Of a stretch of 48,853 bases of DNA, positions 2,832 to 30,408 are shown piece by piece. Each line of letters starts with the position of its first letter. Position 1 is the first letter of the stretch. The position numbers and the translations under genes are program-made. The stretch comes from Pseudomonadota bacterium (GTDB lineage Bacteria; Pseudomonadota; Gammaproteobacteria; Xanthomonadales; Rhodanobacteraceae): NCBI GenBank assembly GCA_018241365.1, contig JAFEDX010000199.1:1-48853 (forward strand), given 5' to 3'. Below the pieces are notes generated by a model, which was given only the letters and a program-made list of their open reading frames with translations, did no database searches and had not been told where the DNA came from.

Positions 2832-2858
2832 TGTAATCGTGGCCGCGCGTTCCCGAAT
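2832..2858 (+). promoter_or_regulatory. ECF-type promoter candidate ahead of the DUF1232/sigma operon
   Basis: TGTAATCGT at 2832-2840 and CCCGAAT at 2852-2858 match the two boxes shared by seven sites in this window, with CCGAA starting 21 bases after the first T. It would place an RNA start near 2864-2866, just at a strong hairpin. If real, it would drive the DUF1232 gene and probably both ECF genes, making the system self-activating. Confidence 0.6.
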
Positions 2859-2864
2859 GCAAGC

Positions 2865-2892
2865 GTGGGTGCGGCATTCCTGCCGCACCCGC
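2865..2892 (+). promoter_or_regulatory. Strong hairpin at the predicted 5' end of the DUF1232 mRNA
   Basis: Bases 2867-2876 (GGGTGCGGCA) pair perfectly with 2881-2890 (TGCCGCACCC) around a TTCC loop, and a further G-U and G-C pair extend the stem to 12. There is no T-run, so it is not an intrinsic terminator. It sits 7-10 bases after the -10-like box, as do the hairpins of the small-gene leaders, so it may protect the RNA 5' end. Confidence 0.6.
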
Positions 2893-2911
2893 CCTTCCTG
2901 GAGAGAACGCC

Positions 2912-3568
2912 ATGCCTACCGTGAACGACGATTTCAACCGCACCGTAACCCGCCTCGATCTCGATTCCGAACTGTCCGGCATTTTCACGCCGGGCGCCAG
3001 CGCCAACCTGCGTTTTGCTGCAGCCGACCTGGCGCGCTTCAATGCCTGCGTGGCGCAGGTGGCCCCCGGGATGCCGACCCTCGACGGCCCTCAGCTCGCC
3101 GGCGCGGCGCGGCGCCTGTCGCGGGCGGTGGGTGCGGGCAACGAGTCGCGTTTCATCCAGACGCGGATGCGCCGTGTGTGTGAAATGCGCGCCTTGCTGG
3201 GCGATGCGCACTGGACGTGTGAACCGCAGCTGCGCGAACGCATGCAGGCGGTGGTCGCCTACATCGACGATGCACCCGGTCTCGTTCCGGATGACGTGCC
3301 CGGGATTGGCGGCCTGGATGACGCCTTGCTGGTGGATCTCGCGATGGAAAGCCTGCGCGGCGAACTCGATGAGTACGCTGATTTTTGCCGCTACCGCGCC
3401 AGTGAGGCGGCGCGCCAGGGCACGGCCTCGGAGCAGGTTCCGATGGATCGCGCCGAGTGGAGCGCACGCCGCCAGGAAGAAATCCTGATGGAGCGGCAAC
3501 TGCGCCGCGCGCGGGGCAGCTCCTACGCGTCCGATGAAGGCGGCGCGGCGCTGTTCCGGGTCGGCTGA
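2912..3568 (+). CDS. YkvA/DUF1232-like protein, first gene of the sigma operon
   Basis: This 218-residue protein has no signal peptide. The central stretch AYIDDAPGLVPDDVPGIGGL and the following DDALLVDLAME (about residues 115-145) resemble the DUF1232/YkvA core (Y-x-x-D-x-x-P-D-x-x-P-x-x-G-x-x-D-D), whose function is unknown. The C-terminal third is rich in Arg and Glu and probably helical. A good Shine-Dalgarno, GGAGAG, lies six bases before ATG 2912. The gene has the shared ECF-type promoter upstream and ends 98 bp before the first ECF gene, so co-transcription is plausible. That context suggests a role in signalling to, or restraining, the sigma factors; this is inference from position only. 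Confidence 0.75.
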   Translation: MPTVNDDFNRTVTRLDLDSELSGIFTPGASANLRFAAADLARFNACVAQVAPGMPTLDGPQLAGAARRLSRAVGAGNESRFIQTRMRRVCEMRALLGDAHWTCEPQLRERMQAVVAYIDDAPGLVPDDVPGIGGLDDALLVDLAMESLRGELDEYADFCRYRASEAARQGTASEQVPMDRAEWSARRQEEILMERQLRRARGSSYASDEGGAALFRVG

Positions 3569-3666
3569 TCGGCCGGGTTGCCAAGATCATGGGATGGCGC
3601 ATAATCGCAGCAGCACGGACGTGGCATGGGAGCCGCGTCCGTATGCTGCGTGAGGGCGCGGCGGAT

Positions 3667-4368
3667 ATGGGCCGATTCGATACGACCCGGTGGAGCGTGG
3701 TGCTGCAGGCGCGTGGCGATCCCGCCGATGCGCGCGTGGCGCTGGAAACCCTGTGCCGTATCTACCGTCCGCCGGTGCTGGCCTACGTCCGCAGCCATGT
3801 GTACGCCCGCGACGCGGCGGAAGACCTGACCCAGGCCTTTTTTGCACGCTTCCTCGAGCGCGCATGGCATGCCGACGCCGATCCCGAACGCGGGCGTTTC
3901 CGCTCGTTCTTGCTGACCGCGCTCAAGCGTTTCCTGATCGACGCCGATGCCGAGGCCGGGGCGCTGAAGCGCGGCGGCGGCTACCGCTTCGAATCGCTGG
4001 ACGAGGACGCGTCCGACGGGCCCGTGGGCGACGATTCCCCCGACCGGATCTTCGAACGCGCGTGGGCGAAAGCCGTGCTGGGCGCAGCGCTGGCGCGCCT
4101 GCGCCGCGAGGCCGAGGAAGCCGGCAAGCTGGCGATGTTCGATCGCCTGAGCGAATTCCTGGTGGAGGCGCCGGATGAGGACGATTACGCCCGGGCCGCG
4201 GAGGATCTGCACCTGCGCCGCAACACGTTGGCCGTCGCAGTGCATCGCTTGCGGCATCGCCTGCGCGACCTGGTGCGCGAGGAACTGGCCGAAACCACCG
4301 CGGGCCACGATGACATGGATTCGGAATTGCGTGCGTTGCGCGAGGCGCTGGAGTCGGCCTCGCATTGA
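3667..4368 (+). CDS. ECF sigma factor, kinase-linked (ECF43-like), copy 1
   Basis: This 233-residue sigma-70 family factor directs RNA polymerase to specific promoters. Region 2 spans roughly residues 25-95 (YARDAAEDLTQAFFARFLER) and region 4 roughly 165-220 (AEDLHLRRNTLAVAVHRLRH, then RLRDLVREELAET). The N-terminal TTRWSVVL motif is typical of ECF factors encoded beside Ser/Thr kinases. Thr55 replaces the usual Val/Ala in the DLxQ motif and is a candidate phosphoacceptor, although this copy keeps acidic residues (RDAAED). An in-frame ATG at 3589 would add 26 residues; ATG 3667 is preferred because homologues begin close to the TRW motif. No anti-sigma gene is adjacent. The second ECF gene starts 64 bp downstream. 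Confidence 0.9.
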   Translation: MGRFDTTRWSVVLQARGDPADARVALETLCRIYRPPVLAYVRSHVYARDAAEDLTQAFFARFLERAWHADADPERGRFRSFLLTALKRFLIDADAEAGALKRGGGYRFESLDEDASDGPVGDDSPDRIFERAWAKAVLGAALARLRREAEEAGKLAMFDRLSEFLVEAPDEDDYARAAEDLHLRRNTLAVAVHRLRHRLRDLVREELAETTAGHDDMDSELRALREALESASH

Positions 4369-4432
4369 GTGTCGCGGGCGAGCAATCGTCACCGCGTTCG
4401 CGAAAGCCAAGAAGTCTTGAAGGGGATTGTCG

Positions 4433-5158
4433 ATGGAATCTGCCGAGGATAAGCGTCTGGAAAATTTCAGCCGCACCCGATGGTCGCTGGTGCGGGGTTT
4501 GCATGCACCGCAGGCGGGCGAGGCGCGGCGCGCGTTGACGGAGCTCGCGCTGCGGTATTGGTACCCGGTGTACGCGTACGTGCGGCGGTGCGGGCATGCG
4601 CCGGAAATCGCGCAGGACATCACGCGGGCTTTTTTCCAGCGGGTGGCGGCCGAGGCTGGCGACATGGAGGATGCGCCGCGCGGACGTTTCCGGGACTGGT
4701 TGCTGTTGCGGTTGAATGTGTTCCTGGCGGGGGACTGGCGGGAGCTGGCGGGCGGCGAAGTGCCGGCCGTATCGCCGCCGCTGGAGGAGCTGGAACAGCG
4801 CAACCGCCATGATCACCAGACCGGGGCAACGCCGGAGCAGGCGTTCCAGCGCGGCTATGCGTTGGAAGTGCTGGCGCGGGGTTTCAAGGCCTTGCAGGCG
4901 GAGGCGCGCCAGACGGGACACCTGGACATGTACGAAGCGCTGGAGCCCTACCTTGCGCGCGATCCGCTGCCGGGGCAGTACGAAGAGCTGGGACGCAAGC
5001 TGGGGATCCGCCCGCTGGCGCTGGTGCTGGCCTTGAAGCGGCTGCGGCAGCGGTTCCGCGAGCTGGTGCACGAGGAGCTGGCCGACGCGGTGTCCTCGCT
5101 GGACGAGATGGCTAGCGAGCAGCAGACGCTGTATGCGCTATTGGCCAAGGGAACGTGA
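4433..5158 (+). CDS. ECF sigma factor, kinase-linked (ECF43-like), copy 2
   Basis: This 241-residue ECF factor is a diverged paralogue of the upstream one. It has FSRTRWSLVRG at residues 12-22, region 2 with HAPEIAQDITRAFFQRV (about 56-72), and region 4 ending LKRLRQRFRELVHEELAD. The acidic DAED-like sequence of ordinary ECF factors is reduced here to IAQD, and Thr64 follows in DITR. This is the arrangement expected if a phosphate must supply the missing negative charge, as reported for EcfP of Vibrio parahaemolyticus. ATG 4433 is chosen over TTG 4427 because AGGGG sits seven to eight bases upstream of it. The stop is three bases from the kinase ATG, so sigma and kinase are translationally linked. 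Confidence 0.9.
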   Translation: MESAEDKRLENFSRTRWSLVRGLHAPQAGEARRALTELALRYWYPVYAYVRRCGHAPEIAQDITRAFFQRVAAEAGDMEDAPRGRFRDWLLLRLNVFLAGDWRELAGGEVPAVSPPLEELEQRNRHDHQTGATPEQAFQRGYALEVLARGFKALQAEARQTGHLDMYEALEPYLARDPLPGQYEELGRKLGIRPLALVLALKRLRQRFRELVHEELADAVSSLDEMASEQQTLYALLAKGT

Positions 5159-5161
5159 GTG

Positions 5162-8100
5162 ATGTCGTCCCAGCCATCGATCCCGGTTGCACGCGATTTC
5201 CAATCCCTGGAAACGCGGCATGGTTTGTGCGGTTTGGCCGAACTTGCGTTTGGCAGCCTGACGCGGACTGACGAACCCGCGGTTGGCCAGCACTTGGCCC
5301 TGTTGCGTGCGGAGAGCCTGCAGTTGGATCTCTCCGATCCGGCGCAGTGCCAGTTCGGCGACTACGAACTGCTGGAACTCCTGGGCGAGGGAGGCATGGG
5401 TGCGGTGTACCGCGCCCGGCATGCGCCGCTGGATCGCGAAGTCGCGGTGAAGCTGTTGTCGGCCGGTCCTTGGGCGTCGAAGGATTTCATTGCGCGTTTC
5501 GAGCGCGAGGCACAGAACGCGGCACGGATGCAGCATCCGAACATCGTGACGGTGTACGAAGTGGGCAGCCACGAAGGCCTGCACTTCTTCAGCATGCGGC
5601 TGGTCGAGGGGCACAGCCTGTCGGAGCTGCTGAAGCGCGGCGAGCGCTACACCTTCAAGCAGGCCGCGTCATTGGCATGCACGATGGCGGAAGCGGTGGC
5701 ATACGCACACAGCTTGGGTGTGCTGCATCTGGACCTGAAGCCGGGCAACGTGCTGATCGATGGCCAGGGCGTGCCGCACGTGGCGGATTTCGGGCTGGCT
5801 CGACGGCTGGACAGCGCCCTGTCCACTGTCAACGACGAAGTGTCGGGCACGCCGGCCTACATGGCGCCCGAGCAGGCGCAGGTGAAGAGTTCGCGGTTGA
5901 CCGCGGCGACCGACGTGTGGGGTCTTGGCGCGATCCTGTATGAATTGCTGACGGGTACGCCGCCATTCAAGGCCGAGAGTGCGCAGGCGACCCTCAAGCT
6001 GGTGTTGGAAGGCCAGGTGCGATCGCCCCGCCGGCTGCAGCCGCACGTGCCGCTGGACCTGCAGGCGATCGTTCTGAAGTCCTTGGCGCGCGATCCCGGT
6101 GAACGGTATCCATCGGCGCGTGCGTTGGCCGACGATCTCGAGCGGTTCGTGGAAGGCCGGCCGGTGCAAGCGAGGCCGTTGAATGTCGCGCAACGCGCGT
6201 GGCGCTGGGCGCGGCGCGAACCCAGACTCGCTGCGACGGCGGTCGCGGCGGTCGGCGTACTCGTGATCGGCCTCGTGGCCACGTCCCAGCAGTGGTACCG
6301 CGCCGACCGCAATGCCGACACAGCGCGCGCCAACGCGGCGACCGCCAGCGAGCGGCTGTGGGATTCGCGCAACGATGCCGCGCTGCGGTTCATGGAGGAA
6401 GGGCAGGATTGGCAGGCTGCGCCGCTGCTGCTCGCGAACCTCAGGGAAATGGAGGCCGCGCGCGACACCGAACGCGCGCGCGGTGCCCGCCTGCGGCTCG
6501 GGCTCGTGCGCAACGGCAACCCGGTGCTGATCGATGCGATTCCGGCGCAGAAACCCGCCGTCGCCATTGCGTTCGATGCCTCGGGGAAACGCATGGCCAC
6601 CAGCGGCACCGAAACCGGCCTGCTGCTGTTCGATACCACCGACGGCAGGGAACTCCTGAAGGTTCCCGGCCGCCCGCACGAGGTGTGGAGTCGGCTGCGG
6701 TTTACGCCGGACGGGCGCACGTTGCTGGCGCAGGGACAGGAGTGGCAGAGTCAGTCCCCGCGACCCGCAGGCGCCCACATGCGGCGGCTCGATACCGCGA
6801 CGGGCGCGTGGCTCGCGCCACCGGAGCCGTTTGCCGACGTCAAGGCGCAGAGCTACAGCACGGATGGCAAATACGCCGTGCTGACGCTGCCGGATGGACG
6901 CGCGCAGTTCTGGGAAACGTCGCCGTGGCGCGCGCTCAGCCCGCTGCACAGCCTGCCGTTTTCCGATGGCGAGGACGCGCGGTTGATCGCGCCGAACGGC
7001 AGCTTCTTCGCGCTCAACGGACCGGATGGTGCGGTCACGCTGGTGGATTCGCGCAGCCTCGCTCCGACGCGCATCGCGCTCGGCGAGTTCGGCAGGATCA
7101 GCGCGTGGGTCGCGAGTCCGGATTCGCGCTGGCTGGCGCTCGGCGACGCCGCGGGACATGCGGTGGTGGTGGAAGTCGCAACCCGCACCGTGCGGCCGCT
7201 CGCGCCGCTTCCGTTCTTCGGTGTGCGCTGGCTGACCTTCAGCGAGGACGGCGGCTGGCTGGCGCTCGCAGCGCGCGACGGCGGCGTGTACCTGTGGTCA
7301 TGGCCGGAAGGCCGGTTGCTCGTGCCGCCTTTCAGTGCCAGCACCACGACCGGCGGCGCGCCGCTCGCCGAACACGTGGAGCTCGACCGCGCACGCGGCC
7401 AGGTGTTCGTGACCGATGAAACGGCCAACACCGCGTTGTGGCAGGTCGCGCCGGCAGCACATGAGAACGATCTCGGCCTTGCGCGACGCGTCATGGCGGG
7501 GGTCGATAACCGGATGGACTGGGGCGTCGAGGCGGCCGCGTGGAGTCCGGCGACCGGCCTGATCGCGAGCACCGTCGACGAACGCGTGCGCCTGACGCGC
7601 CTGCGCGCTCCGGTATTGAAGGCGGGCAGGGGCGCACCGCTGCGTGCCGGCACCTTGCACTTCGATGGTCGCCGTCTGGTCGAAGTGGAAGGGCGCATGG
7701 TGCGGCTTGTGGACGCTCTGACCGAGCAACCGCTTGGCGACCCGGTCGAATTCGTGCAACCACCCACGTTCGCGGAGTTGACGCCCGATGGGGCAACGCT
7801 GGTTGTTGCAAGTGGCCGGTCGGTGCATGTCCTGGATAGCGCGACCGGCAAACCGCGCTTCGCGCCGATTGTGCTCGATGGCGCGCCCGCGCTTGTCGAC
7901 CTCAGTCCCGACAGCCAGCGGATTGCGCTCGCATGGTTGTCGGGTGACGTGCGCAGCGACCGCAACGTCAGCGAACTGACGGTGATCCACAGCCTCGCCA
8001 ACGGACGCAGGCTGGGTGGCCCCGAACCGCTCCCTGGCCCGACCAACGAGGTGCTGGCGTTCAGTGCGGACGGTTCGCGCCTTTTGGTCTGGAATCCGAG

Positions 8101-9511
8101 GGAACTGACGCTCCGCGATGGCGTCACGCTGGCGCCGGTGGCGGGACCGCTTGCGCACTTCCTTCCGCGCGGCCGCGACGAGGATTCGCACCACGGCTTT
8201 GTGCGTTTGGCCGCGCCCGACGCGGCCAGTCGCGTGGAGCTGATCTACGGACGACACGACGGCACCGCGTGGCGCATGGAGCTGCGGCGGTATGCGCCCG
8301 ACGGTACGCCTGCCGTCGTGCCTTTGCAGCGTGGCTGGCCAGTGGCGCTGCTGCCGCTGCCGGGCAGGCACGGTACCGCGATAGCTGGCGGGGACGACCC
8401 GCTCAACCAGATCATCGGTCCCGACGGGGCGAGCCGCGGGCTCCCGCACATGGGCGATGACGCGCGCCGGGCGGCGCTCGCGCTGAGCCCGGACGGACGC
8501 TGGCTGATCCGGTCGCAGCTCGATGGTGTGGTGCTGTTCGACCTAGATCGGATGGCGCGCGTGACGACGCTCAACGTTGCGCTGCCCCAGCCCGACGAAG
8601 TATTGCAGCTCGCATTCAGCCCGGACGGTCGTCGCCTGCTGGGCCGTAGCGTAAACAATCGCTACATGGTGTGGGATCTTACGCCCGACGAACGACCGGT
8701 GGCGGCGATCGCGCGCGAACTCGGGTTGCGCGACCTGCCGTTCAACGTGGCGCGCCACGGTCCCGATGCGCGCGATCCCGACGCGGCGGAGCGCAGGGCG
8801 TTGCACGCCGCCGATCCGGGTGCGCCTCCTGCGCCGCCGGCCCCGGAGGCGGCCGCTGGCGTTCGCGTGCGGCCGGGCGGCGCGATTCCCCCGCGCGATC
8901 CTGCGGTGCCTTCAGGGCTGCTCGACCTCACGCCGTACTACACCTTCGGTCTCGCGGAACCGTTCATCGACGGGGCGCATGCAAGCGGCGATTTCAGTTG
9001 GCTGCCGCGGGGCCTGCAACGGTTCCAGGGCGTCGACTACGACGTGCGGGGTGGCGTGCGGCTGACGGCCGGCGCGGCGTTGCGGTTCGCGCCCGCCACG
9101 ACGGACGCGCGTGCCATTGGCGCGCTGCATGTCTTGGCGCTGCTCGGTGCCGGCGATCCCGACCGTTTCGCGCAATGGCGTCTGGAATACACCGACCACA
9201 CCCATGCGGACGTGCCGCTGGCTCTGGGTCGCAGCTTCGAGGCTTACTGGCGGTCACCGGCCGCGGCCACTCCTGCGCAATTCGCCGCGTTTGGCTGGGA
9301 CGCCCGCGAGCTGCACGAAAACGACCGGCGCGCGTACGCGTTCACCCTGCGCGTTCCCAATCCCCATCCCGAGCGGCTGGTGAAAGCGCTGACGCTCATC
9401 AACCCGAAAGCGGGAGCGGACGCGCCGGTCGTATTTGCGCTGACGCTCGAGCCGGCAAGCCACGCTGCAACCGCGACCGCGAGCGCCGCGGCTGCACGCG
9501 GCGGGCATTGA
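5162..9511 (+). CDS. Transmembrane Ser/Thr protein kinase with periplasmic propeller-like sensor, copy 1
   Basis: This 1449-residue protein has a cytoplasmic N-terminal segment (GLAELAFGSLTR, near residue 25), then a Hanks-type kinase domain. The kinase shows the glycine loop GEGGMGAVY (75-83), VAVK (Lys97), HLDLKPGN (189-196), DFGLA (209-213), GTPAYMAPEQ and DVWGLGAILYELLTG. The catalytic HRD is HLD, making it a non-RD kinase. One membrane segment lies near residues 357-375 (VAAVGVLVIGLVA). The roughly 1070 residues after it carry many SPDGR-like beta-propeller blade motifs and end in a beta-rich module beginning LPRGLQRFQGVDYDVRGG. The kinase therefore probably senses a periplasmic signal. 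It lies between the second ECF gene (3 bp) and the receptor (13 bp). GTG 5159 is an alternative start. Confidence 0.92.
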   Translation: MSSQPSIPVARDFQSLETRHGLCGLAELAFGSLTRTDEPAVGQHLALLRAESLQLDLSDPAQCQFGDYELLELLGEGGMGAVYRARHAPLDREVAVKLLSAGPWASKDFIARFEREAQNAARMQHPNIVTVYEVGSHEGLHFFSMRLVEGHSLSELLKRGERYTFKQAASLACTMAEAVAYAHSLGVLHLDLKPGNVLIDGQGVPHVADFGLARRLDSALSTVNDEVSGTPAYMAPEQAQVKSSRLTAATDVWGLGAILYELLTGTPPFKAESAQATLKLVLEGQVRSPRRLQPHVPLDLQAIVLKSLARDPGERYPSARALADDLERFVEGRPVQARPLNVAQRAWRWARREPRLAATAVAAVGVLVIGLVATSQQWYRADRNADTARANAATASERLWDSRNDAALRFMEEGQDWQAAPLLLANLREMEAARDTERARGARLRLGLVRNGNPVLIDAIPAQKPAVAIAFDASGKRMATSGTETGLLLFDTTDGRELLKVPGRPHEVWSRLRFTPDGRTLLAQGQEWQSQSPRPAGAHMRRLDTATGAWLAPPEPFADVKAQSYSTDGKYAVLTLPDGRAQFWETSPWRALSPLHSLPFSDGEDARLIAPNGSFFALNGPDGAVTLVDSRSLAPTRIALGEFGRISAWVASPDSRWLALGDAAGHAVVVEVATRTVRPLAPLPFFGVRWLTFSEDGGWLALAARDGGVYLWSWPEGRLLVPPFSASTTTGGAPLAEHVELDRARGQVFVTDETANTALWQVAPAAHENDLGLARRVMAGVDNRMDWGVEAAAWSPATGLIASTVDERVRLTRLRAPVLKAGRGAPLRAGTLHFDGRRLVEVEGRMVRLVDALTEQPLGDPVEFVQPPTFAELTPDGATLVVASGRSVHVLDSATGKPRFAPIVLDGAPALVDLSPDSQRIALAWLSGDVRSDRNVSELTVIHSLANGRRLGGPEPLPGPTNEVLAFSADGSRLLVWNPRELTLRDGVTLAPVAGPLAHFLPRGRDEDSHHGFVRLAAPDAASRVELIYGRHDGTAWRMELRRYAPDGTPAVVPLQRGWPVALLPLPGRHGTAIAGGDDPLNQIIGPDGASRGLPHMGDDARRAALALSPDGRWLIRSQLDGVVLFDLDRMARVTTLNVALPQPDEVLQLAFSPDGRRLLGRSVNNRYMVWDLTPDERPVAAIARELGLRDLPFNVARHGPDARDPDAAERRALHAADPGAPPAPPAPEAAAGVRVRPGGAIPPRDPAVPSGLLDLTPYYTFGLAEPFIDGAHASGDFSWLPRGLQRFQGVDYDVRGGVRLTAGAALRFAPATTDARAIGALHVLALLGAGDPDRFAQWRLEYTDHTHADVPLALGRSFEAYWRSPAAATPAQFAAFGWDARELHENDRRAYAFTLRVPNPHPERLVKALTLINPKAGADAPVVFALTLEPASHAATATASAAAARGGH

Positions 9512-12392: not shown

Positions 12393-12527
12393 TCGATGCC
12401 CGCGTGCATCGCCGGGGGTTGTTGCAGGAGAGGACGGGATGGGAGATGCGGCGGGGCAGGCTGTCGCCATGTCAGGGATACCGGCCACACGCACAGTACG
12501 CGGTATGTGAGAAGGGGAGTCTGAGTG

Positions 12528-19808: not shown

Positions 19809-19810
19809 AG

Positions 19811-20620: not shown

Positions 20621-20723
20621 GGCAAGTGAGGGGCAACCCTTACCGCCCACGGATGCGGACGATCCCCACAATCCATGCTCGCCAGTCACGGAAGACCTGC
20701 GGCAGGTTTCAGAGGTGAACGTC
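20621..20723 (+). promoter_or_regulatory. Structured 5' leader of small gene 2
   Basis: GTGAGGG (20626-20632) pairs with CCCTTAC (20637-20643) around a GCAA loop. GGA-CGA-TCC (20657-20665) replaces the GGG-CGA-CCC of leader 1, a paired A-U for G-C change. CCTGC/GCAGG follows, directly before AGAGGTGAACGTC and the ATG. Confidence 0.5.
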
Positions 20724-21071
20724 ATGAAACTCAGCACAATCTCCCTCGCCATCGTTCTTGCCGGTATCGCGGGTGTCGCTTCCGCAGCGGGTCAGAGCAA
20801 GGTCATGCATCCGATTGTCGTCTCGGGTGCGCCCATCTCCGAGTGCGTGCCGCCGAACGGCAATACAGGCCACGCCTGCGATGCATTCGACCAGTTGGTG
20901 CGCGCCAATTTCACGCCGCGTGAAATCGGGATGCTGTTCGGATACCAGACCTCGTATCCGGAATCCCGGACGGGCGGCATCGACAAGTTGGAGCATCGCT
21001 ATCAGGTCGTGTTGCAGCAGTACCTTGCGGCGCAGAACGCCGCCCACGGCGCCAACGTCGCCGCCAAGTAA
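20724..21071 (+). CDS. Small secreted protein 2 of the local family
   Basis: This 115-residue protein has a signal peptide MKLSTISLAIVLAGIAGVAS ending near AAG (residue 22). The mature part contains MHPIVVSGAPISEC, HACDAFDQLV, RANFTPREIGMLFGYQTSYP and a C-terminal helix DKLEHRYQVVLQQYLAAQNA. IVVSG closely resembles a TonB box. The two cysteines keep the same positions as in copy 1, so a disulfide is possible. The ribosome-binding site is AGAGGTGAACGTC. It has its own promoter, leader and terminator, so it is a complete single-gene unit. The function is unknown; co-regulation with kinase and receptor suggests a role at the envelope or outside the cell. Confidence 0.85.
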   Translation: MKLSTISLAIVLAGIAGVASAAGQSKVMHPIVVSGAPISECVPPNGNTGHACDAFDQLVRANFTPREIGMLFGYQTSYPESRTGGIDKLEHRYQVVLQQYLAAQNAAHGANVAAK

Positions 21072-21323: not shown

Positions 21324-21351
21324 GGTAATCATTGCGCGCATTTGTCGAAGT
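21324..21351 (+). promoter_or_regulatory. ECF-type promoter candidate for small secreted gene 3
   Basis: GGTAATCATTG begins at 21324 and TCGAAGT at 21345. Each box has small departures from the consensus, but the 21-base offset is kept. Confidence 0.55.
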
Positions 21352-21353
21352 AA

Positions 21354-21455
21354 CAGGTGAGGGGCACTCCCTCATCGCCCACGGGAACGGGCGAACCCCA
21401 TCCGCCGTGCAGGCCCGCCAAGGAAGGCCTGCTGCAGGTTTCAGAGGTCAACGTC
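21354..21455 (+). promoter_or_regulatory. Structured 5' leader of small gene 3
   Basis: GGTGAGGG (21356-21363) pairs with CCCTCATC (21369-21376) around GCACT. Pairs that are U-G and G-U in leader 1 are U-A and G-C here. GGGCGAACCCC and CCTGCTGCAGG follow in the same order, then AGAGGTCAACGTC and the ATG. Confidence 0.5.
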
Positions 21456-21806
21456 ATGAAACTCAGCGCAATCTCCACTGCCATCGTTCTTGCCGGAATC
21501 GTTGGTGTCGCCTCCGCAGCCGGTCAGGGCAAGGTCATGCAGCCGATCACGGTTGCTGGCGCCCCGGTTTCCGAATGTGCGCCGCCGAACGACACCACCG
21601 GTCACAAGTGTGATGCGTTCAACCAGCTGGTGCGCGCCAATTTCACGCCGCGTGAAATCGGCATGTTGTTTGGCTACCAGACGTCTTATCCGGCATCCCT
21701 GTCGGGGGGAACGGATCGCCTGCAGCGTCGTTACCAGGCGGTACTGCAGCAATACGTCGCCGCGCAGAAGGCCGCCACCAGCGGCGCGGATGTCGCAGCC
21801 AGGTAA
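21456..21806 (+). CDS. Small secreted protein 3 of the local family
   Basis: This 116-residue close relative of copy 2 has a signal peptide MKLSAISTAIVLAGIVGVAS, then MQPITVAGAPVSEC, HKCDAFNQLV, RANFTPREIGMLFGYQTSYP and a C-terminal helix DRLQRRYQAVLQQYVAAQKA. The two cysteines are conserved. Similarity to copy 2 extends through the leader, so the two probably arose by duplication of the whole promoter-leader-gene-terminator unit. The start is fixed by the signal peptide and AGAGG upstream. The third kinase begins 257 bp later from a separate copy of the promoter. The function is unknown. Confidence 0.85.
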   Translation: MKLSAISTAIVLAGIVGVASAAGQGKVMQPITVAGAPVSECAPPNDTTGHKCDAFNQLVRANFTPREIGMLFGYQTSYPASLSGGTDRLQRRYQAVLQQYVAAQKAATSGADVAAR

Positions 21807-21991: not shown

Positions 21992-22019
21992 TGTAATCGG
22001 TTGGCGGAAATCCGGAATG
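21992..22019 (+). promoter_or_regulatory. ECF-type promoter candidate for kinase 3
   Basis: TGTAATCGGTTG begins at 21992 and CGGAAT at 22013, keeping the 21-base offset. It implies that the third kinase-receptor cassette belongs to the same regulon as the small genes. The leader here is short (about 40 bases) and lacks the strong first hairpin. Confidence 0.55.
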
Positions 22020-22063: not shown

Positions 22064-25000
22064 ATGGCCGATGATGTCTCTCGCTCCCAAGGGTCGACGG
22101 TCCGGCGCCTGCGCGGCTTGGCCGAGCTTGCGTTCGGCAGTCTGACCCACGCCGATGAGCCCCTGCTGAGGCAGCACCTCGCGTTGTTGCAAGCGCAAAG
22201 CCTGGAACTGGATCTGTCGGATCCCGCACAACGTCAGTTCGGCGACTATGAACTGCTGGAGTTGCTTGGCGAAGGCGGGATGGGCGCCGTCTATCGCGCC
22301 CGGCATGTGCCGCTCGACCGGATCGTGGCAGTCAAGTTGTTGTCGGCGGGGCCGTGGGCGTCGAAGGATTTCATCGCGCGGTTCGAGCGCGAGGCGCAGA
22401 ACGCCGCGCGGATGCAGCATCCGAACATCGTCACGGTATACGAGGCGGGCAGCAACGACGGTCTGCACTTCTTCAGCATGCGACTGGTCGAGGGACGCAG
22501 CCTGTCGGCGTTGCTGAAGCGGGGAGAACATTACACGCCGAAGGCGGCAGTGGCCTTGATGCACGTGGTTGCCGAGGCGGTGGCGTATGCGCACAGCCTG
22601 GGCGTGCTGCACCTGGACCTGAAGCCCGGCAACGTGTTGGTGGACGAACAGGGAACCCCGCACGTCGCCGATTTCGGTTTGGCCCGGCGGCTCGACAGCG
22701 CAGCGATGGTAGCCAACGACGAGGTTTCGGGCACGCCGTCGTACATGGCGCCGGAGCAAACGCGGCTGCACGAACAAAAACTGACGACGGCGACCGATAT
22801 CTGGGGGCTGGGGGCGATCCTGTACGAGCTCTTGACCGGCACGCCGCCATTTCGGTCGGATAGCGCGGAAGGCACCCTGAAGTTGGTGACGGAAGGGCAG
22901 GTGCGGGCGCCGCGACGGATGCGGCCGATGCTGCCCCTGGACCTCCAGGCGATCGTGCTGAAGTGTCTGGCGCGCGATCCGGACGAACGTTACCCGTCGG
23001 CGCGGGCGCTGGCGGACGACCTGCAACGTTACCTCGAAGGTCGCCCGGTGCAGGCACGGCCGCTGAACACGGCGCAGAGGGTGTGGCGCTGGGCGCGGCG
23101 GGAACCCAGGCTCGCCACGGTGACATTTCTTGCATTCGGCGCGCTGGTCGTTGGTTTGCTTGGGACCCTCGCGCAAACGCAGCGTGCCAGGACCAATGCC
23201 GACTTGGCGACGCAAACGTTGTGGAAATCGCGTACCGATACCGCGCAGAAACAGATAGACCAGGGCGATGCCTACGGAGCGCTCGCCAACGTGTTGGCGA
23301 ACCTGCGCGGGATGGAAGCGCATCACGACCACGCCGATGCGGCGCTGGAACGCCTGCGCATCGGCACCGTGCTCGCCAATGCACCGCAGCTCATCGACGT
23401 GATCCCGATGGGGAATGAGCAGATCACGAATCTTGCGATCTCGCCCGATGCCAGGACCGTCGCCGTGACGACCAGCGCGCGCAAGGTGCATCTGATCGAC
23501 GTTGCCAGCGGCAGGCAGATCTGGAGTCTGAACGTCGGGGTGAACTCATTCGGCATGTCGGGCGGTGGCCTCAACCAGGGTTACCTCGAAATGCATTTCT
23601 CGCGGGATGGCCGGCGCTTGATCGCCTATGGCGACACGGGAATCGACCAAGCCTTCGCCTCGGTGCTGTCCCCGCACCGCATCGACAGCGTGATGATTGA
23701 CGTCGCCACCGGCAAGCTGGTCGATCCGCCGCGGTAATTTGCCGATTTCCTCGCTACCAGTTTCAGCGACGACGGCCGGTTTGCGTTGCTGATCGACAAG
23801 CATGGCGGCGTGCAGCGCTGGCGCACGCAGCCGTGGGCACCGGATGGCGACGAGGTCGAGATCAAGGGCGACGTCGACAACCAAACCATCGCCGGACCGC
23901 TGCTCGGCGAGGCGCTGCTCAGCGATGACGGCGCGACGATGGTCATGGTCAGCGACGCCAACCTGAAGTTCCGGAGTTTCGACGCGCGCCGCATGCGCCT
24001 GCTGCACACGCTGGTACTCGACACGTCGCGTGGGCGTGCCACGGCCTGGGCCTTGCGTCACGACAGCAAGCAGCTCGCCATTGGCACCATGTCCGGGCAG
24101 ATCGCGTTGTGGGACCTTGCTTCTGGCGCCGTGGAATGGCTGCCGTCGCGGATGGGCGGATGGGTCGCAAAGCTGAGTTTCAGTGCCGACGACAGCCGAC
24201 TTGCGGCGATTTCCAACGAACCCAGCGAATTCCGCGTGTTCGATCCGCGCAGCGGAGAACCGGTCGCGATGCCGGTCAGCCTCGACGACACGATGAGCCC
24301 GAATGCGCTGAACAACGTCGAGTTCGGGCCGGACGCATCCACCGTGCTGACGCAGCACTATGCGACGCGTGCGATCCTGTGGCAACTGCCGGAAGCCGGC
24401 TATCCGCCGCAGGCGGCGGTTGCCGCCGCACCGCCGATGGTGGCCCTCTACGCGCGCTTCGCGCTGGCGCACGACGCGCGTTCGCACCTGATGGCGACCA
24501 GCGACAACGGCCAGCTGAAGTTGTGGCGCGTGCGCTGGTCGCCGTTCGTTGGCGGTCGCGCCGCGCCCATGGTCAGCGATACGCTGCGTTTCGACGGGCG
24601 ACACCTGGTTTCGGTCGACGCCAACCGTGTCACAGTGTTCGATGTCGCCACCGGTCGGAGCGTGGGCAAGACCATCGTGCTGCCCGAGGCGCCGACCTTT
24701 GCCGGACTCGACGGCAGCGGCGAGCGCCTGATTGCCATCGCCGGCCGCGAAATCTCGTGCTGGAACTGGCGCGACGGCAAATCTTGCTGGCCTGCAATCA
24801 CGCTGCCGGATTCGCCATTGCATCTGGGCATGGCCGCGCACGCGCCCATGCTCGCCGTTTCCACCGGCGGCAACAAGGATCGCAGGTTCTTCGAGCGCGT
24901 TCGCCTGATCGATCTTGCGACCGGCCGGCAACGCGGCGCGCCCGTCGTCCTGCGCGGCCCGCTCGGCCCGCTGCGCTTGTCGGACGACGGCAAACGCCTG

Positions 25001-26446
25001 CTCGCATTCGAGCAGTGCAATACCCTCGCGGATGATTCCAACGTACTGCGCGTGATCGACACGGGCTCGGCGAAAATCGTGCAGAACTTGGTGAACGACG
25101 GCAAGCCGCGGGCGCAGATCATCGACGCCCGTTTCGCCGACGACGGTAGCGTCTGGAGCCTGAGCGGCCCGCCCGCATGGGGCGGCGACCAGCAGAGCCT
25201 GCTTTGGCACTGGGATTCAGACGGCAAACTGCTCGACAAAACGGTGATCGATCCGGACTTCGGTTCCGAATTCGGGTTGCTGCCGCTCCCGCATGGGCGC
25301 GGGGTCATCGAGACCGATTGGGTCACAGTGTTCGACAACGCTGGCCGAGCCAGGAGAAAGCTGTCGGTACCCGACGAAGGGAACCGCGTCAACGTCGACG
25401 CGTTGAGCCCGGATGGCAAGCTGCTGGCGCTGGCCGACCTCGATGGCGTCAGCCTGTTCGTGGTCGATCGCAACCAGCGGCTGGTACCGGATTTCAAACT
25501 GGCATTGCCCAACCATGATGCGATACGGCAACTCGCCTTCGCACCGGATGGTTCGCGCCTGATCGGCCGCACCATGAGCGGGCACTGGTTCAAGTGGCGT
25601 ATCGCTTCCGACACGCGGCCGGTTGCCACCATCGCGCAGGATCTGCATCTGCGCGATTTCACCGACCTGGGTTTCAACGAACGCGGCAAGTCGGCGCCGC
25701 CGCTGCCAGCGGAAGAACGCCGAAAATTGCGCGCCGCCGATCCGGGGTCGACTCCGGCACCAACCCCTGCAACACTGGTCAATGCCGATGTCACTGCCCC
25801 CGTTCCGGATGCACGCTACGAACCGCTGAACCTCGACGCCATTGCCAACGTCGATCCGCGTGAGCCGATGAATCGGGCGACGCGCGTGCCACCGCAGCCG
25901 CAAAGCCTGCCGACGCTGCCGCGTGGATTGCAGCGATACGATGGCGTGGATTTCATGCTGGGCCGGGCGGTGCAGTTGTCCGGTAGCCCACACAATCGGC
26001 TCGACACCGAGTTCCCCGCGCAATCGCCGACGCTGCGCATTGCGCCGCAGCATATCGCCGCGGTCGACGCACTGGTGTTCCAATTCAACGGTGTCGCGGG
26101 AGAAACGGGTGTGGTGCGGCTGTACTACGCCAATGGCGGCGAGCGCGATCTGGACATCCTCGATGGCCGCGACACGTACGCGTTGCTGGATCTTGCCGCC
26201 ATACAACGCCAGGACAAACCACGCATCGGATGGTTGGGTGCCTATTCGACGGACATTCGTGGCTGGGGCATCAGCGATAGCGGCGACGCGGCGGCCGTGC
26301 CCACCAATGTGGTGCGGCTGGCAAACCCAGAGCCGGATCGTCCGGTCGCGGCCATTTCCCTCGAAGCCCCACCCACGGCCAGTCCGGGCCTGCTGTATCT
26401 CGCATTGACGCTGGAACCGATCGAAGCTTCCCCAACCCGTCATTGA
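22064..26446 (+). pseudogene. Transmembrane Ser/Thr kinase, copy 3, split by one in-frame TAA
   Basis: Codons 1-557 encode the N-terminal segment, a full kinase domain (GEGGMGAVY; Lys91; HLDLKPGN; DFGLARR; GTPSYMAPEQ), the membrane segment and about 180 periplasmic residues. Codon 558 (23735-23737) is TAA. The same frame then continues for over 900 codons as propeller and C-terminal module (RGLQRYDGVDFMLGRAVQLS), giving 1460 codons, like copies 1 and 2. Around the stop, PPR-stop-FAD aligns without gaps to PPEPFAD in kinase 1, so a single base change explains it. No ribosome-binding site lies near the first downstream start (TTG 23786). The product is either a kinase lacking most of its sensor or, if the stop is a sequencing error, intact. 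The frame ends 9 bp before receptor 3. Confidence 0.85.
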
Positions 26447-26455: not shown

Positions 26456-29371
26456 ATGGATTGCGATGCGATTCGAAGCCACGCGTGCTCGCGGGCCTTG
26501 TTCGCGTTGCTCACCCTGATGGCTGCGCCGGCACGCGCCGACGAACCGCCAGCCGACACCAAGACGACGCCGGTGCAACTGCAGACGATCCAGGTCATCG
26601 GCACCCACATCCGCGGCATCGATCTGGAAACCCAGCATCCGGTGCTCGTGATCGATCGCGTAACGATCGAACGCACCGGCTTCAGCAGCGTTTCCGATGT
26701 CGTGCAGGCGATCGTCGCGAACGGCGAGACGCTCAACCGCAACATCAACAACGGCGGCAACGGCGAACAACTGATCAACCTGCGCAGCCTCGGTCCCAAC
26801 CGCACGCTGGTGTTGCTGAACGGCCGGCGCTTCGTCACCGATATCGGCGGCGCGGTGGACCTCTCCGCGATTCCGCTGGCGCTGGTCGAGCGCATCGAGG
26901 TGCTGCTGGATGGCGCTTCGGCGATCTACGGCTCCGATGCGATCGCCGGGGTGATCAACATCGTCACACGCAGCGATTTCGAAGGCGCAGAGGTCGGCGC
27001 GTACTATGGACAGAACAGCCATGGCGATGGCACGCGCCGCGCGTTCGATGCAAGCTTCGGGCACAAGGCCGATCGCTGGAACGTCTCCGGCGGCCTCGAA
27101 TACAGCCGCGATGAGCCGATTTTTGCCGGCGCCCGGGCGATCTCGTCGGTACCGATCGCCGGCTTGCCGGCGGGCCTCACCGGCAGCGGGTTCACGCCGT
27201 ATTCCTGGCTGTTCCCGGCCTCGGGTTCGTTCGGGTGCTACGGCAGCTATCCGTGCTTCCAGCGTTTGGTCGATGGCCGCTCAGGCACGTCCGTGGGTGA
27301 TTTCAGCCTGTTCGACCCGTTGACCGAGAATTACAACTATGCGCCGCTCAATTACCTGCAGACACCGCAGGAGCGGCGTGCCGCCTTCGCACAGGGCCAC
27401 TATGAATTCAGCCCGACGCTGGCGCTGAACGCCGACGTCCTGTTCAACCGCCGCATTTCCAGCCAGCAGCTCGCGCCGCCCGACATCTTCATCGACGCGA
27501 CCAATCCCGGCAATCCGGATGCGATCGCGATTGATCCCGGCAATGTGTACAACCCGTTCGGCGAGCCGATCCTGATCGCGCTGCGCCGCTTCACCGAAAG
27601 CGGGCCGCGCCTGTACCGGCAAACCGACGATACCTTGCGCGTGCACCTCGGCCTCGATGGCTTGTTCACGCTGGCGCAGCGCGATTTCAGCTGGGGCGCG
27701 GATGTCGCTTCCACGCGTTCGGACACGCGCGAACAGGTCACGCCCTATTTCGACGACCGCAAGCTCGCGCTGGCGCTGGGGCCCTCGTTCCTTGATTCGG
27801 CGGGAGGCGCGGAATGCGGTACATCCGCGGAGCCGATCGCGGGTTGCGTGCCGCTGAACCTGTTCGGACCGCCCGGATCGGTCACGCCGGCGATGCTGGC
27901 CTACATCGGCGCCACCGAGGTGAATCGTTATCGCGACCAGTCGCGTTCCGTGGGTGCGCATGTCACGACCAGCAATCTGTTGCTGCTTCCGGACGGCGCG
28001 CTCGCGTTCGCAGCGGGCGTCGAGTACCGCCACTTGAGCGGCAGTTCCTTGCTCGATCCGCTGGAAACGCAAGGTTTCGCCAATGGCAACGGAGGCGATA
28101 CCAGTGGCTCAACCATCGGCAGCTATTCGGTGAGCGAAGCCTATGTCGAATTCGACGCGCCGTTGCTGGCCGACCGGCGCTTCGCAAAAAAACTTGGCGT
28201 CACGCTGGGCACGCGCTGGTCGCATTATTCGAATTTCGGCGGTACCACCAATTCGCAACTCGGGCTGCGCTGGCAGCCGGTCGACGACGTGTTGTTGCGC
28301 GCGAACTGGGCGCAGGGTTTCCGTGCGCCATCGGTCAACGACTTGTACGGTGGTGCGCAACAGACCCGGCAGTTCAACGGCATCCTCGATCCCTGCGATG
28401 CCGTCAACGCCCCGACGCCTGCGGTGCTGGCGCGCTGTGCCGCGCTGGGCGTTCCAGCGGACGTCAATTCGGGCAACGAACAGGGCAAGGTGACGCAGGT
28501 CGGCAATCCGCGGCTGCAACCGGAAACGGCGCGTTCCCACGGCGTGGGTATTGTCTGGAACCCGGCGTGGTTCACGGGGTTTGTCGGCAGCCTCGACTGG
28601 TACGACATCCGCCTGCGCAACGCGATCGCCGATCCGGGGTTCCAGGGCATCGTCAGCGACTGCTACGAACACGACAACGACGCGTATTGCGCGCTGGTCA
28701 CGCGCAATCCGGTCGATGGCACGATCGAACACGTCGAGGATCTGATGCAGAACATTCCCGGCGGGATCGAAACCGAGGGCTACGACTTCGCGTTGGCCTG
28801 GCAGCGCGACACGCGCTTCGGGCGCATCGCGCTGCACTGGAGCACCAATTACGTCGATTATTTCGGCGAGATCGGCAAGCCTGCCCCCGGCGCCGTGTTG
28901 GCGGACGGTTCGACGGCGCATGGCAACGAGGTCGGCATGAACAGCCCCACCACCACCGGCCTGTTCGGCGTGATCTGGCGCTGGCGTTCGCAGTTGCAAT
29001 TTGCCTGGGACCGCAGAGCGTGGAGTGCGTCGATCACCGAGCGCTATTTTTCCAGCATCGACGAAGATTGCAGCGGCGTCGCCTATTACGCAAGCATCAG
29101 CAATCCCGGCTACCTGGGCCTGTGCTCGGGCGGCAACCGGACGATGCTGATCGCGGGCAACGCGGTCCCGTTCAACCACGTGGGCAGCGTCGCCTACACC
29201 GACGTCGAAGTGGATTGGGAATCGCCGTGGCATGGGCGCATCATGCTGGGCATCCGCAATGCGCTCGATCGCGATCCACCGGTCGCGTACTCGGCGTTCG
29301 CCAATTCGTTCTTCCCAGATTACGACGTGCCGGGCCGGTTCTGGTGGTTGAGCTATCGGCAGACTTTCTGA
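26456..29371 (+). CDS. TonB-dependent outer-membrane receptor, cassette 3
   Basis: This 971-residue receptor has a signal peptide (ALFALLTLMAAPARA; cleavage near residue 28), a TonB-box-like TIQVIGTHIRG, the plug with NRNINNGGNGEQLINLRSLG and DGASAIYGSDAIAGVINIVT, and a barrel ending FWWLSYRQTF. It is a paralogue of receptors 1 and 2, with the loops more divergent than the plug, as expected for different ligands. The start is ATG 26456 with GAGG upstream. It lies 9 bp after the disrupted kinase 3 frame and is itself intact. A promoter for small gene 4 begins 15 bp after the stop, the same spacing as after receptor 2. Confidence 0.95.
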   Translation: MDCDAIRSHACSRALFALLTLMAAPARADEPPADTKTTPVQLQTIQVIGTHIRGIDLETQHPVLVIDRVTIERTGFSSVSDVVQAIVANGETLNRNINNGGNGEQLINLRSLGPNRTLVLLNGRRFVTDIGGAVDLSAIPLALVERIEVLLDGASAIYGSDAIAGVINIVTRSDFEGAEVGAYYGQNSHGDGTRRAFDASFGHKADRWNVSGGLEYSRDEPIFAGARAISSVPIAGLPAGLTGSGFTPYSWLFPASGSFGCYGSYPCFQRLVDGRSGTSVGDFSLFDPLTENYNYAPLNYLQTPQERRAAFAQGHYEFSPTLALNADVLFNRRISSQQLAPPDIFIDATNPGNPDAIAIDPGNVYNPFGEPILIALRRFTESGPRLYRQTDDTLRVHLGLDGLFTLAQRDFSWGADVASTRSDTREQVTPYFDDRKLALALGPSFLDSAGGAECGTSAEPIAGCVPLNLFGPPGSVTPAMLAYIGATEVNRYRDQSRSVGAHVTTSNLLLLPDGALAFAAGVEYRHLSGSSLLDPLETQGFANGNGGDTSGSTIGSYSVSEAYVEFDAPLLADRRFAKKLGVTLGTRWSHYSNFGGTTNSQLGLRWQPVDDVLLRANWAQGFRAPSVNDLYGGAQQTRQFNGILDPCDAVNAPTPAVLARCAALGVPADVNSGNEQGKVTQVGNPRLQPETARSHGVGIVWNPAWFTGFVGSLDWYDIRLRNAIADPGFQGIVSDCYEHDNDAYCALVTRNPVDGTIEHVEDLMQNIPGGIETEGYDFALAWQRDTRFGRIALHWSTNYVDYFGEIGKPAPGAVLADGSTAHGNEVGMNSPTTTGLFGVIWRWRSQLQFAWDRRAWSASITERYFSSIDEDCSGVAYYASISNPGYLGLCSGGNRTMLIAGNAVPFNHVGSVAYTDVEVDWESPWHGRIMLGIRNALDRDPPVAYSAFANSFFPDYDVPGRFWWLSYRQTF

Positions 29372-29386: not shown

Positions 29387-29413
29387 TGTCATCGTTGAGT
29401 GCGGTTGCCGAAT
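29387..29413 (+). promoter_or_regulatory. ECF-type promoter candidate for small secreted gene 4
   Basis: TGTCATCGTTG begins at 29387 and CCGAAT at 29408, with one base changed in the first box and the offset unchanged. Confidence 0.6.
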
Positions 29414-29518
29414 AAGTGAGTGAGGAACAAAAACCTCATCGCTCAATGGAAGGGCGACCTCAACCCTCCGTGTACGCCAGGCAAGGAAGACCTGCTGCCG
29501 GATTCAGAGGTGAACGTC
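29414..29518 (+). promoter_or_regulatory. Structured 5' leader of small gene 4
   Basis: TGAG-TGAGG (29417-29425) pairs with CCTCA (29434-29438) and CTCA (29442-29445) across a three-base bulge. The sequence differs from leaders 1-3, yet a stem is kept at the same place. AGGGCGACCT and AAGACCTGCTGCCGG follow, then AGAGGTGAACGTC. Confidence 0.5.
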
Positions 29519-29860
29519 ATGAAACTCAGCGCAATCTCCGTTGCCATCGCTCTGGCCGGTGTCGTCGGTATCGCCTCCGCAGCCAGCCAGACCACGATCA
29601 TGCCCAGCGTCACCGTGTCCGGTGCGCCGGTCGCACAATGCACGCCGCCGACCGCCGATCCGGCTTGCGCGAACTTCCATCGCTGGATCCGCGCGAACTT
29701 CACCGATCGCGAAATCGGCATGCTGTTCGGCGCTTCGACCGCCTATCCGGAATACGCGACTGGCGGCATCGATCGTCTGGAACGTCGTTATCACGGCAAG
29801 CTGCACGAGTACCTCGCGACACAACAGGCCGCCAGCCGTGCGGAAATCGCCGTCAAGTAA
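29519..29860 (+). CDS. Small secreted protein 4 of the local family
   Basis: This 113-residue protein has a signal peptide MKLSAISVAIALAGVVGIAS cleaved near residue 21. The mature part carries MPSVTVSGAPVAQCTPP, ACANFHRWI, RANFTDREIGMLFGASTAYP and a C-terminal helix DRLERRYHGKLHEYLATQQA. The cysteine pair is kept although the spacing between the two is shorter than in copies 1-3. ATG 29519 follows AGAGGTGAACGTC, identical to copy 2. It is a self-contained unit with promoter, leader and terminator, placed after receptor 3 just as copy 1 follows receptor 2. The function is unknown. Confidence 0.85.
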   Translation: MKLSAISVAIALAGVVGIASAASQTTIMPSVTVSGAPVAQCTPPTADPACANFHRWIRANFTDREIGMLFGASTAYPEYATGGIDRLERRYHGKLHEYLATQQAASRAEIAVK

Positions 29861-29900
29861 CTCAACCGTTGGGCAACGCTCCATCCGTTGTTCCTCCCAT

Positions 29901-29928
29901 ACGCCCCGCTTTTCGCGGGGCGTTTTTT
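29901..29928 (+). terminator. Intrinsic terminator after small gene 4
   Basis: ACGCCCCGC (29901-29909) and GCGGGGCGT (29915-29923) form a 9 bp stem followed by a T-run. It is nearly the same sequence as the terminators after small genes 2 and 3. Confidence 0.9.
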
Positions 29929-29952
29929 CGGAGGGGCCGGAAGGCTCAGTGG

Positions 29953-29979
29953 CGTAATCGTGCCATAGGGTTTCGGAAC
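29953..29979 (+). promoter_or_regulatory. ECF-type promoter candidate for small gene 5
   Basis: CGTAATCGTG begins at 29953 and CGGAAC at 29974. This is the most degenerate site of the seven, but the 21-base offset is kept. Confidence 0.5.
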
Positions 29980-29981
29980 CT

Positions 29982-30069
29982 GTAGATGGAGGGGCGAATC
30001 CTCCCCACGCCACGGATGCGGCAAGGCGACCATTCCGGAACTATCGTTGCAGTCACGGAGACAACAGCC
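29982..30069 (+). promoter_or_regulatory. 5' leader of small gene 5
   Basis: GGAGG (29988-29992) pairs with CCTCC (30000-30004) around a seven-base loop at the predicted RNA start. Downstream CACGGATGCGGCAAGGCGACC recalls the other leaders, but the final hairpin is lost and the ribosome-binding site is CACGGAGACAACAGCC. Confidence 0.4.
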
Positions 30070-30408
30070 ATGAAACTTCGCGCAACCTCAATCGCGCTCT
30101 TTCTTGCCGGGTTTGCCGGTGCCGCGGCAGCGGGCCACGCCGGCACGATCATGCAACAGGGGCAAACCATCAATCTGCTGTCCCAGGCCACGGGCCTGAC
30201 GCCGCATGAGGTCCAGATGGTGCTGGGCCCGCCCGCCAACTACGAGTATCCCGTCAGGTACGCTACCGCCAGTTGGCGCTTTCGCCATGCCTTGGGACGG
30301 ACTTTGTACGAACAGATCCTTGGGCAAGGCTCGATCAATGCGCAGCAGGTGCAAGAGTTGAACAAGTTGGCCAGAGCACGCCAAACGATGGTGGCAGCCG
30401 ACAAGTGA
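30070..30408 (+). CDS. Small secreted protein 5, divergent member of the local family
   Basis: This 112-residue protein has a signal peptide MKLRATSIALFLAGFAGAAA cleaved near residue 21, very close to that of copy 1. The mature part is different: MQQGQTINLLSQATGL replaces the VSGxxxxEC segment, there is no cysteine, and only TPHEVQMVLG recalls TPREIGMLFG. The C-terminus is basic and helical. Promoter, leader and signal peptide show common descent, so the mature protein has either diverged fast or been replaced. No good T-rich terminator follows; the cfa gene ends 83 bp away, reading toward it. The function is unknown. Confidence 0.75.
   Translation: MKLRATSIALFLAGFAGAAAAGHAGTIMQQGQTINLLSQATGLTPHEVQMVLGPPANYEYPVRYATASWRFRHALGRTLYEQILGQGSINAQQVQELNKLARARQTMVAADK

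Follow-up and report, generated by a model that had tools for sequence, protein, structure and literature searches.

The window analysed here is the whole of contig JAFEDX010000199.1 (assembly GCA_018241365.1, Rhodanobacteraceae; 48,853 nucleotides), our contig C109 of a 3.23-Mb draft genome. From 2832 to 30408 on the + strand it carries two genes for extracytoplasmic function (ECF) sigma factors, three kinase-receptor cassettes, with one kinase broken, and five small secreted proteins. An earlier sequence-only reading had noted these parts, and their coordinates were confirmed. The order is open reading frame 1 (ORF1), ECF1, ECF2, kinase 1, receptor 1, kinase 2, receptor 2, s1-s3, kinase 3, receptor 3 and s4-s5. 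We consider it likely that the kinases, the sigma pair, the receptors, the small secreted genes and a leader RNA form one autoregulated signalling module. The features are listed below, with the scores of a position weight matrix (PWM) for the shared promoter motif and of a model, R1, for the leader RNA.

2832..2857, +, promoter motif 1, upstream of the sigma operon (1 mismatch; PWM 30.6; training site)
2912..3568, +, ORF1, 218 aa, in many relatives the conserved first operon gene
3589..4368, +, ECF1 sigma factor (matches Sigma70_r2/Sigma70_ECF)
4427..5158, +, ECF2, diverged ECF1 paralogue (36% identical to ECF1)
5159..9511, +, kinase 1: Ser/Thr kinase of the HLD type with a membrane-helix-like stretch (near residue 357), a WD40-type region and a C-terminal domain
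9525..12392, +, TonB receptor 1 (no STN match)
12525..16889, +, kinase 2; sensor predicted as a WD40-type propeller region (probably two) with a C-terminal beta-sandwich
16886..19765, +, TonB receptor 2
19781..19806, +, promoter motif upstream of s1 (0 mismatches; training site)
19809..19911, +, structured 5' leader RNA of s1 (R1 78.8 bits; training member)
19912..20250, +, small secreted protein s1
20593..20618, +, promoter motif upstream of s2 (0 mismatches; training site)
20621..20723, +, structured 5' leader RNA of s2 (R1 90.6 bits; training member)
20724..21071, +, small secreted protein s2
21324..21349, +, promoter motif upstream of s3 (PWM 32.8; 4 mismatches to consensus; training site)
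21352..21455, +, structured 5' leader RNA of s3 (R1 97 bits; training member)
21456..21806, +, small secreted protein s3
21992..22017, +, promoter motif upstream of kinase 3 (3 mismatches; training site)
22064..26446, +, kinase 3, frame interrupted (one in-frame TAA at 23735-23737)
26456..29371, +, TonB receptor 3
29387..29412, +, promoter motif upstream of s4 (2 mismatches; training site)
29415..29518, +, structured 5' leader RNA of s4 (R1 77.6 bits; training member)
29519..29860, +, small secreted protein s4
29953..29978, +, promoter motif upstream of s5 (2 mismatches; training site)
30070..30408, +, small secreted protein s5 (short form, core only, no Cys pair)

Position 2832 is the first base of promoter motif 1. 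The gaps from ORF1 to receptor 2 are short or negative (132 bp at the longest), which is consistent with a single operon. No Pfam or NCBIfam match was obtained for ORF1; its likeness to DUF1232 was seen by eye only and, without a Pfam match, the assignment was rejected. The TAA in kinase 3 may reflect biology or an assembly error.

The promoter motif, TGTAATCGT-N10-TTCCGAA, is present in 7 copies, upstream of the sigma operon, of kinase 3 and of each small gene. It lies 131-132 nt from the ATG for s1-s4 and 117 nt for s5. A fixed pattern with zero mismatches was too strict (2 sites only), and a mismatch search and a matrix were used instead. At <=3 mismatches the own genome has 24 matches vs 6 for the backward pattern, and 6 of the 24 are in the cluster, including the only three with 0-1 mismatch. 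The s3 site, with 4 mismatches, is outside this list and was found by eye.

The matrix was built from the seven window sites, themselves picked by eye, and was applied to relatives outside training. The scan covered the window and 72 loci (52 from the same family, 20 from other families), with reversed sequence as control. At PWM >=12 it found 93 positions (7 of them training sites) vs 1 in reversed sequence: 9 vs 0 in the window (7 training), 71 vs 0 in the family loci and 13 vs 1 in the other-family loci. A site scoring >=8 lies upstream of 23/33 held-out linked small genes and of 0/12 unlinked ones (Fisher 2e-5), where linked means that an ECF, kinase or receptor homologue is in the same locus; one linked gene at a region edge was unscorable, and several unlinked genes sit on short contigs. 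In relatives the motif is found upstream of ORF1, often also between ECF1 and ECF2. Furthermore, when 233 family genomes were scanned with the fixed pattern, the 30 that have ECF1 gave 30 matches vs 1 for the control.

The sequence-only reading had the ECF factors switching on the secreted proteins. One part of this stands, as one sigma-type promoter is shared by the sigma operon, kinase 3 and the small genes; which sigma factor reads the motif we only infer. Sequence evidence gives good support to the transcriptional side of the proposed circuit.

In terms of the sigma factors, ECF43 members are defined by having lost the acidic DAED motif of region 2.2, according to the accessible parts of PMC8999054 and PMC8103513. 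ECF1 keeps both acids in all sequences (E or D in 60/60 at the first position, D in 60/60 at the second), and the ECF43 label given to it earlier therefore fails. In ECF2 the first acid is present in 4/41 sequences and the second in 30/41. An exact RGRF is found in 53/60 ECF1 vs 3/41 ECF2 sequences. The region-2.2 position whose Thr is used by EcfP is Thr in 18/41 ECF2 sequences. For ECF2 there was no Pfam match, and the NCBIfam sigma matches were weak only.

One linker position of ECF1 is Ser, Thr or Asp in 54/60 sequences. Because EcfK is phosphorylated in its linker (PMC13147305, accessible part), we regard this residue as a candidate phosphosite, not as evidence. We think that ECF1 is the working sigma factor, and that ECF2 either regulates ECF1 or is a second sigma factor that has to be modified. 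No anti-sigma gene was seen among the window genes scanned with Pfam, which were part of the window ORFs.

The kinase gene adjoins the ECF gene, both in the window and in relatives. VAVK-type, HLD, DFG and APE motifs are present in nearly all of 30 kinase domains. HRD is the usual catalytic-loop motif of kinases, and HLD takes its place in 30/30 domains, including those of the window (5159, 12525 and 22064). A membrane-helix-like stretch near residue 350 is followed by a sensor of about 1080 aa. A WD40 Pfam match above the cut-off was obtained for kinase 1 only. For kinase 2, the AlphaFold2 (AF2) model of the sensor has a long mostly-beta region and a C-terminal beta-sandwich (pLDDT 71). Its best Foldseek matches are WD40 proteins (E down to 2.7e-25), several of them two-propeller proteins, with TM-scores over the query that are low (0.21-0.29) and do not fix the propeller number. 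The predicted fold of this sensor agrees with a WD40-type propeller; the sequence-only reading had expected propellers.

A PP2C-type phosphatase gene, recognised by eye, lies beside the operon in two relatives (L177 about 4144-4917, L068 7971-8741), with a weak third match. Such a neighbour would fit reversible phosphorylation.

As for the receptors, Plug and barrel domains were matched in all three, and the STN signalling domain was matched in none of them. We found 31 sensors of >=900 aa, two of them too near a contig end to be scored; a receptor lies within 160 bp directly downstream of 15/29 scorable sensors. In L180 the receptor is on the other side of the sensor and was scored as none. 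On the sensor tree the receptor label clusters, with 4 changes vs a shuffled mean of 9.9 (0/500 shuffles as low), and near copies add to this clustering. Kinase-receptor pairs recur in families f2 and f12 (L178, L179, L186, L188, L192), where the receptors share 26-62% identity with the window receptors. The sequences support a pairing that has persisted across long distances.

The small proteins s2-s4 are 41-45% identical to s1, and s5 is 27% identical; a sixth member, s6, is encoded elsewhere in the genome (contig C156). They have a Sec-type signal peptide, judged by eye and from PDB profile matches, which were mostly to signal peptides and otherwise weak (E 0.15-0.9) to unrelated chains. 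In the main form, the signal peptide is followed by a conserved L-x-x-V-x-V strand, then by a pair of cysteines (C-T-P-P ... C) and by a helical core that contains REIGMLFGARTSYPE. Only the core is present in s5 and in relatives from another family. The Pfam search gave nothing consistent, and the AF2 fold (pLDDT 68.6) had no PDB match at E<=0.001.

The L-x-x-V-x-V strand resembles a strand at a like place in the receptors, which we take to be the TonB box (LQTVIVSG in s1, LQTIVVTG in receptor 1). In a fixed residue window it is found in 31/35 small proteins vs 15/150 other secreted frames, after 7/42 small rows had failed the length, start or signal filters. A cruder first count gave 8/39 vs 9/186. 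An attempt to select the receptors for the fixed-window count picked out none. The p-value overstates the difference because the small rows are homologous. We treat this apparent likeness as a lead only.

Between the promoter and the ATG of the small genes, about 104 nt can be aligned across genera. A three-stem structure has 87% of cells paired vs at most 53% in slid controls, and a covariation of 0.237 vs at most 0.085; stems 1 and 2 were drawn from the tested sequences themselves. The percentage paired, the double-change cells and the covariation score are above all 500 shuffles and every slid control, for example with 7 double changes at columns 66-89. The alignment is one column off register in some Rudaea rows, which costs stem 1 pairs. 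Rfam gave no convincing match in window 19600-30800 (two chance-like matches at a loose threshold) and no match for the leaders in six loci. A coding role for the leader was rejected, with stops in the ATG-phase frame of 8/20 sequences.

Model R1 has 24 matches in 18/233 genomes. Four of these are outside training: two precede small genes, one in G008 (E 1e-4) has no small gene beside it and was treated as false, and the fourth (G220/L158) was counted neither way. In the loci, at E<=1, there are 29 matches, 20 of them training members. By position, 8/9 of the others lie before small genes, although only three of the nine have E<0.001 (one of them L158), the other six ranging from 0.004 to 0.6. 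The leader of s5 was not found by R1 at E<=1. Copies without the promoter motif keep the leader, namely s6 (L087), L073 and L067 12652. GGA is in the loop of stem 2 in 19/20 sequences and of stem 3 in 20/20, where 17% and 8% are expected. GGA in hairpin loops is the signature of CsrA/RsmA, and a CsrA homologue is present in the genome.

In terms of distribution, the small-family profile A1 matches 24/233 family genomes, with Rhodanobacter, Rudaea and Dokdonella among the named relatives. ECF1 was matched in 35 family genomes at E<=1e-20; five weak ones (E 1e-26 to 1e-38) were dropped, leaving 30. The families do co-occur in relatives, and the lack of co-occurrence that the sequence-only reading had named as refuting thus did not arise. 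At the family level (n=233), 20 genomes have both, 4 the small family only, 10 ECF1 only and 199 neither (Fisher 7e-18). At the order level (n=398), with the broader profile A7, the counts are 14, 29, 13 and 342 (p 2.6e-8). Since those 29 genomes have no close ECF1, the small family is wider than the system.

The motif also points to a wider predicted regulon. In relatives it precedes secreted-protein genes of several kinds: HAF-repeat, tandem-95/adhesin-like, Kelch-like (by eye) and a 165-aa family without assigned function. Among frames of >=100 aa downstream of the motif, 20/50 are signal-peptide-like vs 187/1302 at random positions; by eye, 17 of those 50 are ORF1 or ECF2 of the system itself. 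One HAF-repeat gene of the own genome, unlinked to the system (contig C128 near 2296, L033), has the motif with 3 mismatches (PWM 21.8). A HAF-repeat gene adjoining the system in relative G002 also has it, and the two genes match the same NCBIfam repeat. The leader RNA and the wider secreted regulon are new relative to the sequence-only reading.

Several other observations concern the motif and the surroundings of these loci. At C165:3035 (L021) of the own genome, the motif (2 mismatches, PWM 25.1) lies before a membrane protein, by eye a TPR/cyclase-like regulator. A secreted family of 163-177 aa follows directly after kinases without a TonB receptor, each member behind a motif (L158:7412-7942; L161, L164, L166); the one member tried had no Pfam match. 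In L153, at 15197 and 17217, a near-identical gene pair encodes one secreted protein, each copy with the promoter motif. On the opposite strand beside the window operon there are, by eye, ParC (topoisomerase IV subunit A; 1-1857, -) and a TraB/GumN-like protein (1906-2778, -). Neighbouring regions of relatives contain a fluoride riboswitch and a t44 RNA (L067:10014-10084; L095:7605-7694).

We propose the following mechanism. An inner-membrane kinase with a large periplasmic propeller sensor would read a condition tied to its partner TonB receptor. By the precedent of Ser/Thr protein kinase-ECF pairs, the active kinase would switch on the ECF1/ECF2 pair. The module sigma factor, most likely ECF1, would then recognise TGTAATCGT-N10-TTCCGAA, a step that the sequence supports. 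It would transcribe the operon that encodes it, the cassette of kinase 3 and receptor 3, the small secreted genes and, outside the cluster, some genes for secreted proteins such as the HAF-repeat protein. Most small-gene mRNAs would begin with the conserved three-hairpin leader, where the RNA itself is supported and a control function is presumed; as its loops expose GGA, small-gene translation is probably also set by RsmA/CsrA. Lastly, the small proteins may act in the periplasm or outside, as an output or feedback arm. The sensing and phosphorylation half of the circuit we infer from precedent.

A more specific version of this mechanism is kinase-based cell-surface signalling, which runs from an STN-less TonB receptor to the propeller kinase, the ECF pair and small periplasmic proteins. 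The L-x-x-V-x-V strand of the latter would imitate a TonB box, so that these proteins might feed back by competing for TonB or by docking on the receptor, and RsmA would gate their translation through the new leader. We regard this version as speculative and rather unlikely.

A number of results weigh against a single module. The EcfP-type Thr of region 2.2 is conserved in only 35/60 ECF1 sequences (Ala 21, Val 3, Ser 1), the reader of the motif is predicted, and the action of the kinase on the sigma factors is drawn from precedent. Among the genomes with ECF1, 10/30 have no match to A1, and 10/33 held-out linked small genes have no site >=8. No receptor lies downstream of 14/29 sensors, and most 3-mismatch matches in the own genome have no secreted-looking gene downstream (by eye). 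With assignment of the motif to ECF1 being a sequence-based prediction, another sigma factor might read it and ECF1/ECF2 might have another purpose. The pattern is matched in 44/233 genomes, and the 203 family genomes without a close ECF1 still give 35 matches vs 7 in the control, so that either the control is too low or such words have another user. Matches per genome are, however, about six times commoner with ECF1 (30 in 30) than without (35 in 203), and many relatives have motifs ahead of ORF1-ECF1 and in the gap from ECF1 to ECF2, as autoregulation predicts; we regard another reader as very unlikely. Alternatively, the small genes may be a paralogous array that inherited its promoter and only adjoins a kinase-ECF-receptor module, without a functional link to the signal of that module. 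This would suit the small-family genomes that have no close ECF1 (4/24 in the family, 29/43 in the order). It would also suit 10 regions around small genes, from genomes without a close ECF1, in which no ECF or kinase homologue and only weak receptor matches were seen. The presence of the promoter nevertheless follows linkage to the system (23/33 vs 0/12), and the adjacency recurs in another family, f2 (L180, L181, L186, L193, L195); we hold mere adjacency to be quite unlikely.

Two further alternatives concern single parts of the module. The likeness of the leaders could come from recent gene duplication only, with no RNA element, given that leaders within one genus are very alike and that the structure was partly drawn from them. 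Moreover, 2/5 pair measures do not beat shuffling (8 pairs with double changes vs 6.1 shuffled, with 68/500 shuffles as high; 20 further pair types vs 20.6). The three measures that exceed all shuffles and slid controls argue against duplication, as do the copies that have the leader without the promoter and the held-out R1 matches, most of which precede small genes even if six of nine are weak. We consider duplication alone an unlikely explanation. ECF2, for its part, could be a sigma-like regulator of ECF1, acting as antagonist or phosphorylation target, and not a second sigma factor. The lower retention of the region-2.2 acids and of RGRF in ECF2 than in ECF1 would fit this role. Its region 4 is by eye still intact, however, and five loci (L181, L189, L190, L191, L194) have ECF1 and a kinase without an ECF2 match, which indicates that ECF2 is not always needed. 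Such a regulatory role is a real possibility, if the lesser one.

One autoregulated module remains our preferred reading, and it can be compared with systems already described. In FecI-FecR-FecA the gene order is sigma factor, inner-membrane regulator with a periplasmic domain, and TonB receptor. The same order of sigma factor, membrane regulator and TonB receptor is found here, but a kinase takes the place of FecR, which is an anti-sigma protein, and the receptors have no STN match. We class the module as kinase-regulated ECF signalling whose layout follows fecI-fecR-fecA, the kinase standing where FecR would be. The leaders resemble those bound by CsrA/RsmA in that hairpin loops ahead of the start codon carry GGA; unlike them, they match no Rfam family, and CsrA/RsmA binding is predicted only.

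The ECF43 pairs PknS-EcfK of Xanthomonas citri and PknT-EcfP of Vibrio parahaemolyticus each have a transmembrane Hanks-type kinase beside an ECF factor with a dedicated regulon (accessible parts of PMC13147305 and PMC8999054). A transmembrane kinase is likewise encoded beside an ECF factor here. By contrast with what these sources describe, the acidic pair of region 2.2 is retained in ECF1, a second ECF gene is present, and the locus includes TonB receptors and a small secreted family with leader RNA. The kinases are of the HLD type with WD40-type propeller sensors, unlike PknS with its TPR sensor. Membrane Ser/Thr kinases of Planctomycetota have a cytoplasmic Pkinase domain, a membrane helix and periplasmic WD40 repeats (PMC11032199, accessible part). 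The kinases here share this layout of Pkinase, membrane helix and WD40-type sensor, but differ from those kinases, as that part describes them, in the receptor pairing and the secreted small family. The kinds of components are known. The sequence-only reading knew of no system joining them, and none was found in the literature searched, without supplements and most subscription journals; this absence is not proof.

Very few examples of kinase control over ECF factors have been worked out, and we found none in which such factors are coupled to TonB receptors. The module supplies a defined promoter with a predicted regulon, and a receptor paired with a kinase. It also supplies a structured leader and a secreted family for which Rfam and Pfam, respectively, gave no match. 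The host family has cultured members (Rhodanobacter, Rudaea, Dokdonella), and one cultured relative, Rhodanobacter sp. B05, has the complete module (locus L076/L104). With this module, a route from an outer-membrane event to a Ser/Thr kinase becomes testable.

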